This document shows positions 39,149 through 42,357 of a stretch of DNA of 49,164 bases, piece after piece. Every line of letters begins with the position of its first letter. Within the stretch, counting starts at the first letter, position 1. A program made the translations under genes and the position numbers. The notes beneath the pieces were generated by a model. That model made no database searches. It worked only from the letters and a program-made list of their open reading frames with translations, and was not told the DNA's origin. This stretch comes from Candidatus Methylacidiphilales bacterium (GTDB lineage Bacteria; Pseudomonadota; Gammaproteobacteria; JASGCS01). The stretch lies in contig JASGCS010000005.1 of the NCBI GenBank assembly GCA_030054035.1, positions 1 through 49,164 on the forward strand, written 5' to 3'.

Positions 39149-39235
39149 GCCGAGGTGGCGGAACTGGTAGACGCGCCAGACTCAAAATTTGGTAATGGCA
39201 ACATTGTGCGAGTTCGACTCTCGCCCTCGGCACCA
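39149..39235 (+). tRNA. tRNA-Leu (anticodon CAA)
   Basis: The first 28 nt are the same as those of the tRNA-Leu at 27519. Anticodon stem CCAGA/TTTGG around loop CTCAAAA gives anticodon CAA. Long variable arm, T loop AGTTCGACTCT, and encoded CCA at 39233-39235. It lies 9 nt after the rne stop and 2 nt before the next ATG, so it must be cut from a protein-coding transcript. Confidence 0.96.
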
Positions 39236-39237
39236 CT

Positions 39238-39918
39238 ATGGATAGGGCAAAACATATAATTTTGCTACACGGATGGGGACAAGACACTACTAGTTTTCAA
39301 ACGCTTGTTTCCATGTTGGAATCTGAATTCCAAGTTACAACATTTGATTTCCCTGGCTTCGGTACAGGACCAGCCCCAGGATCACACTGGGGAATTCAAG
39401 AGTATATTGAATGGACTGCAGACAAACTCTCCAAACATCCACCCGCAATACTTTTTGGTCATTCTTTTGGAGGAAGAGTGGCAATTGGGTTAGCCGCTCG
39501 CCAACCTGCATGGTTGCGTAGCGTTATCTTATCGGGCACTCCCGGACTGTATCGTCCTTCCCGAAAAGTGAGGAGTAAAATTTTACTCGCGCGCATTTGG
39601 AAATCGCTCAAGTTACCTAACACTAATGTACTAGGCAGCCAAGAACTCCGAGATGCCGATCAAAAAGGCCTGGCATCAATTTTTAAAAAAATTGTACCAG
39701 TCGACCAGAAACAAGAACTTACCCAAATTAAAATTCCAACCCTCTTGATCAGGGGTGAGCATGATACTGCCGTAACCCATGCTACATACCAAGAAATGAT
39801 CTCAGCTATACCTTCACATCCAACCTGCATAACCATACCGAGAATTGGACATAATATACATCTTGAAAATCCCTTTATACTTTTCGGCATAATCAAAAAG
39901 TTTTCTAATGCACTATGA
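39238..39918 (+). CDS. Alpha/beta hydrolase
   Basis: 226 residues with the hydrolase fold: oxyanion loop HGWGQDTTSF, nucleophile elbow GHSFGGRVAI, a late Asp in LLIRGEHDTAVTH and a catalytic His in RIGHNIHLE. The substrate is unknown. The LGSQELRDADQKGLASIFKKIV segment before the Asp resembles hydrolases found beside Mur-ligase and Ddl genes in candidate phyla bacteria (from memory). The ATG is 2 nt after tRNA-Leu with no ribosome-binding site. The end overlaps the MurF-like gene (ATGA). Confidence 0.88.
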   Translation: MDRAKHIILLHGWGQDTTSFQTLVSMLESEFQVTTFDFPGFGTGPAPGSHWGIQEYIEWTADKLSKHPPAILFGHSFGGRVAIGLAARQPAWLRSVILSGTPGLYRPSRKVRSKILLARIWKSLKLPNTNVLGSQELRDADQKGLASIFKKIVPVDQKQELTQIKIPTLLIRGEHDTAVTHATYQEMISAIPSHPTCITIPRIGHNIHLENPFILFGIIKKFSNAL

Positions 39919-41213
39919 TGAGTAAAATATTTCCCTTTAGTGATTTTATGTATCTTGCTCAACTTGAAGAATACGATGTATGGAGATACCTCACGCTCGT
40001 AAAACGATTTTTCTTTAGAAGAAATATTCAAACAAGAGGAAGACTGATCTACACCCAACGCGCCCTAGCTATCTATAGTGGAAGTGTGGCAATATGGCTA
40101 TGGTGTGTGACCAGCACATCATCGCTCACCATCATAGCTATCTCCACATTAGCCATCCCACTTTTGATCGTGCCTCCACTCCTGATTACTGAGCCGATCT
40201 ATGGCTTATTAAAATTAATAAAAATCCGAAAAGCAACTTCCCTGCTCCGTAAAGGACGCACAAAAGTAATTGTGATTGCTGGGAGCTATGGAAAAACTAC
40301 CGTGAAAAATTTTCTTTACCAACTGCTCAAACCTTTTTACAAAACTCAAATGGTGGGAGGAAATATTAACTCTGCGATCGGCATTGCTCAATGGATATTA
40401 CAGAACTATCAAGTTCAGTGCCAATTTCTCATAGTGGAAGTAGATAGCTATGCACTAGGACGAATCGCACGAAGTGTGGCCATGCTTTGCCCAGACTACA
40501 CCATACTAACCTCGATTGGAGATCAGCATGGAGAGCGCTTTGGCTCAAAAAGAAATCTCGCCACGGCTCTCCTAGAAATACACACCCCATGTCATAAGCC
40601 ACAAAACCACATCACCACCAGGGAAGTAGATCAGTATATCCGAGAGCAAAATATTAAAACCGTTCTGTACCACCTTGCACAATCTACTGAGCAAGCAACT
40701 CATTTAAGTAAAACTCAACAACAATGTTTAGATCTTGCCTGTTCGGTAGCGCATCAGCTTGAAATAAAACCGAATGTACTTCAATTATGTAAACAGTCTC
40801 TCACCGTACCAGATCGGAGACAAAAACTCACTTGGTTGCATGGCTTCACTACGATTGATGACTCGTATAATATCAGCTACACCACTGCAATCAGCGCGCT
40901 TACCACCGCCCATGAACTGGCTAGTAAGGAAAAGAAAAATCTATTAGTGCTCTGCGCTGGCATTCCAGAATTGTTACCGAGCGAACGAGATCGCAACCAG
41001 CAACTCGCGCGTGCGATTGGGGAGCGCGCTACCCACACGCTACTGCTAACTAGTATCTTTGCTAAAGAGATGGCTGAGGTATTGCGCGATGCGAACAAAT
41101 CGTTCTCTCTTCACACTTCAATGAGCGATGCGATTCAATATCTAATTACATCACAGGATCCGAAACAAACCCTGCTATTACAATTTCCAGAGTTAACCGA
41201 TCTCTATTATTAA
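39915..41213 (+). CDS. Membrane-anchored MurF-like Mur ligase
   Basis: 432 residues. Two predicted membrane helices (AIYSGSVAIWLWCVT; LTIIAISTLAIPLLIVPPLL) come before a Mur-ligase core: VIVIAGSYGKTTVKNFLYQLL (P-loop), GGNINSAIGIAQWIL, LIVEVDSYALGRI, TILTSIGDQHGERFGS and TIDDSYNISYTT. Standard MurF is soluble and carries an extra N-terminal substrate domain; neither applies here. This type probably joins D-Ala-D-Ala or a related unit to a UDP-MurNAc peptide, supported by the neighbouring ddl. Whether it replaces normal MurF is not visible from the window. Confidence 0.85.
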   Translation: MMSKIFPFSDFMYLAQLEEYDVWRYLTLVKRFFFRRNIQTRGRLIYTQRALAIYSGSVAIWLWCVTSTSSLTIIAISTLAIPLLIVPPLLITEPIYGLLKLIKIRKATSLLRKGRTKVIVIAGSYGKTTVKNFLYQLLKPFYKTQMVGGNINSAIGIAQWILQNYQVQCQFLIVEVDSYALGRIARSVAMLCPDYTILTSIGDQHGERFGSKRNLATALLEIHTPCHKPQNHITTREVDQYIREQNIKTVLYHLAQSTEQATHLSKTQQQCLDLACSVAHQLEIKPNVLQLCKQSLTVPDRRQKLTWLHGFTTIDDSYNISYTTAISALTTAHELASKEKKNLLVLCAGIPELLPSERDRNQQLARAIGERATHTLLLTSIFAKEMAEVLRDANKSFSLHTSMSDAIQYLITSQDPKQTLLLQFPELTDLYY

Positions 41214-41235
41214 CGCGTCATTAGTAACACATGTG

Positions 41236-42357
41236 TCACCTAGTAAATTTTTTTACTAGGTCGCTCGTCTCAACGCAGAGCAGCGGGGAAGAAAACCATC
41301 GCTCCCTGGTTTGCAAAATTAGTTGATGTAATTGAGCTCTAAAGAGCTCACCAGTTGTCTCCCAAAGATAACTTGCTAAAGAGCCAGGAATTGGGTTTAT
41401 CTCGTTACAATAAAGTAACTCGGCATGCACAATCCAATCAATTCTCACCACACCCTGACACCGACATGCGAGATAGACTTTTTTTGCCTCAGCAACGATC
41501 TGAGCAGCAAGGTCTGGAGTAATTGGGGCCGGAACTTTTCTCGGCAAATCACTCATGCCACCTAATTTTTTTGCTCCACGCAGATACTTATCTTCAAAGC
41601 TAAGCATTTGATTTTGTTTAATGGGTTGCTCAATTGGGCTTACCTCAATCTTGCCATTCACCCTACGCACAGAGCAATTGTACTCAGCACAATCAGACAT
41701 ATATTGCTCAACCACAACTTCCCTATCTACTTGCAATGACCCTTGGATCGCTAACTCAAGTTCAGCTAATGAATGCGCAACGCTAATAGCTATGCTTGAA
41801 CCCAAATGCGCAGGTTTTATAATCAATGGAAACCCTAATACACCAACAACTGATTGGCAAAACTCATCTATATATTGGAATTGAACGCGTTGCAGAGATC
41901 TATAGGGAACTATTCTGACACCCGCTTCTTGCACGATAATTTTAGTCAGGGTCTTGTTCATACAAATACTTGCCGACTCTACCGTTTCAGAGGACTGTGG
42001 AATTGAGAAACTCGCCGCCAATCCTGCCATAGCACCACCCTCTCCCCCTCCTCCATGCATTGCATTAATAGCACAGTAAAGCGGGTGCTTAATCTCACAA
42101 CCTTCCAGAACAAAATACGGGCTCATCGTCTCTGCGTCATAACCCAAATACAATCTTTTCTTCAAAGCTGATGCAAATGACTTTCTATCATGGCAACCTT
42201 GTAGATAATATAACTCGCCCTGTCCAGTCACCATCCATGCGAGAGGAAAATACAAATCTCTATCAAGATGCTCCATCACTTGTAAACCAGTAACAATTGA
42301 TACTTCATGTTCTGGAGAAACGCCACCAAACAGCACTGCAATATTTTTTACGGTCAT
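41236..42357 (-). CDS. ddl: D-alanine--D-alanine ligase
   Basis: 373-residue ATP-grasp enzyme. VLFGGVSPEHEVSIVTG at the N-terminus, INAMHGGGGEGGAMAGL, the Lys of GFPLIIKPAHLGSS, EYNCSVRR, and the active-site loop with VVRIDWIVHAELLYCNEINPIPGSLASYLWE. The pattern INPIPGSLASYLWE is closer to VanA-like/Gram-positive and candidate-phyla Ddl than to the DdlB of proteobacterial cell-division clusters (from memory). It converges on the MurF-like gene with a shared hairpin at the ends. Confidence 0.92.
   Translation of the reverse strand: MTVKNIAVLFGGVSPEHEVSIVTGLQVMEHLDRDLYFPLAWMVTGQGELYYLQGCHDRKSFASALKKRLYLGYDAETMSPYFVLEGCEIKHPLYCAINAMHGGGGEGGAMAGLAASFSIPQSSETVESASICMNKTLTKIIVQEAGVRIVPYRSLQRVQFQYIDEFCQSVVGVLGFPLIIKPAHLGSSIAISVAHSLAELELAIQGSLQVDREVVVEQYMSDCAEYNCSVRRVNGKIEVSPIEQPIKQNQMLSFEDKYLRGAKKLGGMSDLPRKVPAPITPDLAAQIVAEAKKVYLACRCQGVVRIDWIVHAELLYCNEINPIPGSLASYLWETTGELFRAQLHQLILQTRERWFSSPLLCVETSDLVKKFTR
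41238..41261. terminator. Candidate bidirectional terminator between murF-like gene and ddl
   Basis: ACCTAGTAAA (41238-41247) and TTTACTAGGT (41252-41261) are perfect 10-bp arms around TTTT. The hairpin forms the last codons of ddl, so it would serve mainly the convergent plus-strand transcript. There is no strong T-run outside the stem. Confidence 0.5.

Follow-up and report, generated by a model that had tools for sequence, protein, structure and literature searches.

Whether the last steps in the assembly of the cell-wall stem peptide can be handed over as a block to a foreign, membrane-associated set of enzymes is the question raised by three open reading frames (ORFs) at positions 39238-42357 of contig JASGCS010000005.1 from Candidatus Methylacidiphilales bacterium, which was analysed over its 49,164 nucleotides (hereafter the window). 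These ORFs encode an alpha/beta hydrolase, a MurF-type ligase, here designated MurFL, and a D-alanine--D-alanine ligase (Ddl). A first-pass annotation of the sequence had proposed that the trio might be an acquired cell-wall peptide module, either replacing the usual enzymes or added to them. The analyses described below, which encompass the anatomy of the module, its conservation as a unit, the lack of a canonical MurF or another Ddl in the host, its grouping with Patescibacteria sequences and its substitution for murF in two further genomes, make it very probable that the trio forms a complete D-Ala-D-Ala module and that the normal murF and ddl of the host have given way to it.

When searched against the host genome (1.72 Mb in 16 contigs, 96% complete), the Mur ligase middle domain matched six places, corresponding to MurE, MurC, MurD, FolC, Mpl and MurFL, and no canonical MurF. 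A search with the Ddl C-terminal domain likewise found no second Ddl in this assembly; the other match, at 25 bits barely above the cut-off of 24, falls in a frame of 1618 aa read as carB-like. The division and cell wall (dcw) cluster of the host reads ftsI-murE-mraY-murD-ftsW-murG-murC-murB-ftsQ-ftsA-ftsZ-lpxC, with gene names assigned partly by reading of the sequences and MurE, MurC, MurD and MraY confirmed by search. Since murE overlaps mraY and murB overlaps ftsQ, no gene lies between the members of either pair, and murF and ddl are missing from their usual places. Between the two possibilities put forward in the first-pass annotation, which had also suggested looking for a standard murF and ddlB in the dcw cluster, the absence of both genes thus favours replacement, within the limits set by an assembly that is 96% complete, and the trio is the sole D-Ala-D-Ala branch found in the host, one of membrane type.

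The trio is not restricted to this contig. A pattern-based scan of a genome collection with one genome per species (84,980 species) returned one relative, the Candidatus Dojkabacteria contig CALDYZ010000041 (L010), which carries hydrolase, MurFL and Ddl genes in identical order and orientation, their products presenting 36-40% identity to the window proteins. The recurrence of gene order and orientation on an independent contig indicates that the arrangement is not due to chance. In the corresponding metagenome-assembled genome (MAG; completeness not stated), the five Mur ligase places are MurFL, MurE, MurD, MurC and a MurE-like protein, with no canonical MurF. A two-row profile identified MurFL (E<=1e-30) in 53 of the 379 genomes of the phylum of this bacterium; the phylum of G036 was read as Patescibacteria and the class of the window as Gammaproteobacteria, based on gene content and the title of L010. 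The Patescibacteria loci share genes, order and orientation with the window trio but sit in candidate-phylum bacteria, whereas the host analysed here possesses lpxC and an otherwise full dcw cluster.

The conservation of the module was assessed on 42 loci: those of the window and L010, and 40 from the remaining 52 MurFL genomes (12 were not fetched). In 40 of these loci the gene immediately upstream of MurFL, in the same orientation, is that of the hydrolase, the exceptions being L099 and L086, the contig of which ends 18 bases past MurFL. Ddl is encoded within 200 bp downstream of MurFL in 24 loci (13 convergent, 11 codirectional), further off in 10, and is not in the stretch in the remaining 8. 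None of 24 canonical MurF loci used as a control (flanks of ~1.5 kb) presents a hydrolase or Ddl of the module families, as opposed to a hydrolase in 29 and a Ddl in 22 of 30 MurFL loci with equal flank size; the neighbour profiles were partly built from the loci that they scored, making the latter two counts partly circular but leaving the 0/24 control unaffected. The hydrolase, MurFL and Ddl genes hence constitute a recurring module conserved as a unit, and the resemblance to candidate-phylum clusters evoked in the first-pass annotation is substantiated both by the Dojkabacteria contig and by the recurrence of the module in Patescibacteria.

Substitution of canonical MurF by this module is also observed in other Proteobacteria. 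A 20-row profile searched against 369 genomes of the window's class returned seven MurFL with an N-terminal part, including that of the window (E<=4.7e-78), the next match (2.0e-60) beginning at profile position 116. Against 398 genomes of the window's phylum, the same profile returned the window and three more (E<=1e-63). In the stretches fetched around the nine MurFL genes other than the window's, a hydrolase was detected in seven and a Ddl in six. The 36 Mur_ligase_M places in the seven class MurFL genomes all correspond to MurFL (one in each), MurC, MurD, MurE, Mpl or FolC, so that this census found canonical MurF in none of the seven, while recovering it in the control genome G594 (438.7 bits). 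In two of these genomes, G473 and G693, the trio occupies the murF slot (mraZ-rsmH-ftsL-ftsI-murE-hydrolase-MurFL-Ddl-mraY), and G594, from the same family, presents matching neighbours around a canonical gene (mraZ-rsmH-ftsL-ftsI-murE-murF-mraY); gene names in the three genomes were assigned partly by reading, and MurE and MraY of G473 were confirmed. The strongest indication that the trio performs the job of MurF comes from this substitution in place.

The sequence of MurFL departs from that of canonical MurF in its N-terminal region. The best NCBIfam match of the window protein is murF (TIGR01143), with 112.5 bits against a curated cut-off of 288.6, and its Mur_ligase_C match (residues 309-422, 26.6 bits) falls under the cut-off of 28.4. 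The N-terminal Mur domain is absent among the Pfam matches of the window MurFL and in all of 20 MurFL (0/20). As stated in the first-pass annotation, which had described membrane helices in place of the usual substrate domain, residues ~58-102 of the window protein are hydrophobic, with 19-residue Kyte-Doolittle means of 1.6-2.5. Using a mean of at least 1.6 over 19 residues, starting within the first 229 residues, as the criterion, a helix-like N-terminal stretch was detected in 50 of 51 MurFL and in 3 of 24 canonical MurF. The P-loop (GSYGKTT), Glu175, His205, Arg302 and a MurF-type DDSYN signature (residues 315-319) are retained in the window MurFL, and 20 aligned MurFL show no variation in the P-loop or at the Glu, His, Arg and Asp positions. 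A DDSYN-type signature, a mark of MurF, is present in 44/51 MurFL, in 24/24 canonical MurF and in 0/13 other Mur-type ligases. Structure prediction of MurFL, performed from two sequences, yielded a mean predicted local distance difference test score (pLDDT) of 43 and a predicted template modelling score (pTM) of 0.32.

Canonical MurF (TIGR01143; PDB 1gg4, the Escherichia coli enzyme) and MurFL thus have in common the middle domain, the P-loop, the conserved Glu and His residues and the DDSYN-type signature, as well as, judging by gene order, an equal position in the pathway. They differ in that canonical MurF has an N-terminal UDP-binding domain, which MurFL lacks, presenting putative membrane helices instead. 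The combination of a missing UDP-binding domain, membrane helices and a MurF-type signature suggests a MurF-type ligation that would proceed at the membrane and without the usual UDP recognition. PgsB, a poly-gamma-glutamate synthase, also lacks a UDP-binding domain, and MurFL could in principle be a different amide ligase of this kind (PgsB/CapB-like) or a MurT-like protein. MurT is similarly described as a Mur ligase devoid of the N-terminal UDP-binding domain that acts on lipid II (PMC6113224; see also PMC6085368). Against such an identity, the best curated match of MurFL is murF, no PgsB or MurT family appears among the nine families listed, and the MurF-type signature, the linkage to Ddl and the occupation of the murF slot all point to MurF, making it highly improbable that MurFL belongs to either of these groups. 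MurT/GatD resembles MurFL in lacking the N-terminal domain, and the MurT substrate is lipid-linked, but the partner of MurT is a glutaminase, with which it amidates D-Glu, whereas MurFL has a MurF-type signature and is accompanied by an alpha/beta hydrolase and Ddl. Membership in the MurT/GatD family was accordingly rejected, with no match to the MurT C-terminal domain and a hydrolase, rather than a glutaminase, as partner.

Both Pfam domains of the window Ddl (PF01820 and PF07478) score above their cut-offs (57.1 and 122.8 bits), and the protein falls below the curated NCBIfam cut-offs, as illustrated by TIGR01205 (203.6 versus 245.65 bits). Vancomycin-type D-Ala-D-Lac or D-Ser ligases were discarded as an identity for this protein (VanG, 141 of 495 bits; VanA, 102.6 of 775). 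The window Ddl contains the loop INPIPGSLASYLWE that the first-pass annotation had singled out, but candidate phyla are not alone in having a loop of this type: in the alignment to solved Ddl structures, which include 2i80 from Staphylococcus aureus, the Helicobacter pylori Ddl (PDB chain 2pvp) carries INPIPGSLANYLF. The remaining protein of the module matches general alpha/beta hydrolase families. Its Ser76, Asp176 and His205 residues, which would form the catalytic triad, are invariant in 21/21 aligned module hydrolases, and this conservation suggests that the hydrolase is probably active.

To trace the origin of the module, phylogenies were obtained with quick IQ-TREE runs, with support from the Shimodaira-Hasegawa-like approximate likelihood ratio test (SH-aLRT) only, for MurFL (75 rows), Ddl (62 rows) and the hydrolase (68 rows). 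The 40 fetched loci contributed 31 rows to the Ddl tree and 38 to the hydrolase tree, and the nine other proteobacterial loci 6 and 7, respectively. In all three trees the window proteins fall within one small Patescibacteria clade made up of the Dojkabacteria protein and 4-5 further rows, with SH-aLRT values of 97 (six rows) and 100 (seven rows) for MurFL, 99 (six rows) for Ddl and 99 (seven rows) for the hydrolase. This clade stands apart from the canonical MurF, the Ddl and the hydrolases of the window's class and from the other proteobacterial copies, and all 40 fetched MurFL rows are placed on the MurFL side of the tree (support 100). The three proteins hence group with Patescibacteria and not with gammaproteobacterial orthologues, the placement that the first-pass annotation had named as incompatible with its proposal. 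A Patescibacteria-related source is the most likely origin of the module in terms of sequence affinity. Given the long branches of the window proteins and a G+C content of 0.43 that resembles that of the neighbouring epmA and epmB, the transfer, if directed into the lineage of the window, would be old. Plasmid searches returned 7 records with the window MurFL, 4 with the window Ddl and 49 with the G1031 MurFL, and all of the former, as well as the best 30 of the 49, present partial MurFL coverage or correspond to Ddl/Van-type ligases; a search of viral contigs yielded 31 pattern matches, none of them a relative.

The literature indicates that a membrane MurF is already known in the Campylobacterota, under the name MurF. 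The Campylobacter jejuni genes murF (Cj0795c) and ddl (Cj0798c) neighbour each other and Cj0796c, which encodes an alpha/beta hydrolase; Cj0796c could not be deleted in preliminary attempts, and filamentous cells were seen in roughly one of ten transformants given a second copy of it (PMC5530802). In an essential-gene study, Cj0795c and Cj0798c are listed in an 'FBA only' row, that is, as predicted by modelling and not by transposon data, and Cj0796c is absent from its main text (PMC3229698). The MurF of H. pylori is HP0740 (PMC6501431), for which four N-terminal membrane domains have been reported (PMC9448923, citing Blair 2018) and which is reported to interact with the cell-shape protein Csd5 (PMC9507126). 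A study of dcw clusters (PMC8871954) omitted candidate phyla. Searches restricted to open papers found no account of the trio as a membrane MurF module, of its spread, of canonical MurF being displaced by it or of MurF transfer from candidate phyla, although such an account may be published.

The gene neighbourhood of C. jejuni, the membrane domains of H. pylori MurF and the placement of H. pylori Ddl among the module Ddls (SH-aLRT 99) liken the Campylobacterota to the window, whereas the four helices reported for H. pylori MurF contrast with approximately two in the window MurFL, and the H. pylori Ddl lies on a separate, long branch; for MurF and the hydrolase, the likeness is one of published description and not of sequence. 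Together with the copies in other Proteobacteria, these traits could suggest that the module came from the Campylobacterota or another proteobacterial lineage and not from Patescibacteria. This origin appears unlikely, since the nine other proteobacterial MurFL all fall outside the clade of the window and so does the H. pylori Ddl (clade support 96), although the program flagged its long branch as unsure. The notion of an acquired, candidate-phylum-type cell-wall module is consequently upheld by the trees as to the affinity with Patescibacteria, with the refinement that the trio also occurs in other Proteobacteria and, according to the literature, in the Campylobacterota.

Several observations weigh against a displacement of the host enzymes by a module from a Patescibacteria-related source. 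Among the 53 Patescibacteria genomes with MurFL, at least five (G091, G156, G338, G389 and G414) hold another MurF-family match (E<=1e-50), and a further 11 have a single MurF-family match whose place was not listed. One of these five, G091 (L070/L117), belongs to the window's own clade and encodes the trio together with a canonical MurF (333 bits), a co-occurrence that may reflect either a replacement under way or some other use of one of the two. The DDSYN-type signature is absent in 7 of 51 MurFL, including L068 and L070, which are close to that of the window. In G555 (L121), MurFL stands alone between an asparagine-synthase-like ORF and a large sensor-like one, with no hydrolase or Ddl beside it in the stretch. 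In the trees, the Patescibacteria Ddl of L073 groups with canonical Ddls, the class hydrolase of L208 is placed on the module side by a split with a support of only 89, and the window proteins have long branches (1.04-1.14) and at most 44% identity to any tree row. The direction of transfer is inferred, because MurF and hydrolase sequences from the Campylobacterota could not enter the trees, and the enzymatic activities and membrane topology of the module proteins are likewise predictions. Finally, the alanine racemase C-terminal domain (PF00842) returned no match in the 96%-complete host genome; given that Ddl requires D-Ala, another enzyme, an outside supply or an assembly gap must account for this absence.

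The genomes holding both types of MurF, and an assembly that is 96% complete in 16 contigs, are what could be invoked in favour of the trio being an addition, with canonical MurF and Ddl encoded in unsequenced parts of the genome and the module making a modified or secondary stem peptide. This would nevertheless require both genes to lie elsewhere than in the dcw cluster, their usual site, which was assembled without them, and it is at odds with the remaining MurFL-bearing members of the class, six genomes that also lack canonical MurF and two of which carry the trio in the murF slot. We thus regard addition as quite improbable and displacement as the better account of the data.

The position of the trio between rne-tRNA-Leu and epmA, as reported in the first-pass annotation, was confirmed by ORFs, domain matches and ARAGORN, with rne and tRNA-Leu(caa) on one side and epmA on the other (Table 1). 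The hydrolase and MurFL genes overlap by 4 bases (gap -4), 22 bases separate MurFL from the convergent ddl, and ddl starts 6 bases past the epmA stop, on the same strand. The encoded CCA of the tRNA-Leu stops 2 nt 5' of the hydrolase ATG (39149-39240), so that cleavage behind the tRNA would leave the hydrolase with a leaderless message. A second copy of this tRNA 3' end was sought beyond the trio and not found, and the tRNA hence provides no mark of integration. A palindrome, CTAGTAAATTTTTTTACTAG, lies at 41241-41260, in the MurFL-facing 3' end of ddl, and could possibly act as a two-way terminator.

Table 1. Coordinates of the module genes and of the adjoining tRNA gene in the window.
Feature	Position	Strand	Description
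tRNA-Leu(caa)	39149..39235	+	ARAGORN; directly 5' of module, after rne
Alpha/beta hydrolase, module gene 1	39238..39918	+	226 aa; Abhydrolase_1 E 1.5e-22
MurFL	39915..41213	+	432 aa; Mur_ligase_M E 3e-20, residues 121-270
Ddl (D-alanine--D-alanine ligase family)	41236..42357	-	373 aa; both Ddl domains, E 1.8e-35 and 3.2e-15

With a G+C content of 0.426-0.430, the trio exceeds the mean of the window (0.385), as would be expected if a Patescibacteria stretch had been joined into the contig through contamination or mis-assembly. The neighbouring epmA (0.429) and epmB (0.446) are, however, equally GC-rich, the ddl start is immediately adjacent to epmA, identity between the window proteins and the tree rows does not exceed 44%, and the host would otherwise be devoid of MurF and Ddl altogether. 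An artefactual origin is therefore scarcely credible.

If the trio is a complete D-Ala-D-Ala module, Ddl would join two D-alanines and MurFL, using ATP, would attach the resulting D-Ala-D-Ala to the MurNAc-tripeptide made by MurE. The predicted helices, which take the position of the UDP-binding domain of other Mur ligases, would hold MurFL at the inner face of the membrane, and ligation at the membrane could take place either on UDP-MurNAc-tripeptide channelled to MraY or, after MraY, on lipid-linked MurNAc-tripeptide, the second variant being judged the less likely. The precedent of MurT on lipid II leads to the proposal that MurFL may, by analogy, act on the lipid-linked tripeptide; the UDP-binding domain is reported to be unnecessary in MurT and to be likely to clash with the membrane (PMC6113224). 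As a separate observation, the murE gene of G631 (L210:6905-8197) overlaps the end of an ftsI-like gene and encodes a protein of 430 aa that begins at the P-loop and lacks the UDP-binding N-terminal domain, and a similar N-truncated MurE-like protein is present in the Dojkabacteria MAG (L035). Such truncated MurE proteins in MurFL genomes would be consistent with late ligases that use an acceptor without a UDP link.

In its broadest form, the proposal is that both here and in the Campylobacterota (e.g. Helicobacter) MurFL acts after MraY, adding D-Ala-D-Ala onto a lipid I/II tripeptide and thereby reversing the order of MurF and MraY, with the hydrolase as dedicated partner and the module moving between phyla and repeatedly replacing cytosolic MurF. 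We put this forward tentatively, as less likely than not. The hydrolase would in any event be a regular partner of MurFL and Ddl, and the least unlikely guess as to its role, held with low confidence, would have it edit or release an acyl intermediate of the D-Ala-D-Ala branch that is wrong or has stalled.

MurF and Ddl are regarded as near-universal, cytosolic and essential enzymes and as antibiotic targets. In this bacterium a membrane version, with its closest detected relatives in Patescibacteria, has apparently taken the place of both as a block, and the swap recurs in other Proteobacteria, in one family exactly in the murF slot. These results suggest a second architecture for the last step of stem-peptide synthesis, which according to the published descriptions also occurs in pathogens of the Campylobacterota, and whose partner hydrolase C. 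jejuni may be unable to do without. Whether MurF acts before or after MraY hence becomes a testable matter, and in cells carrying this module a step of wall building may differ in both place and time.

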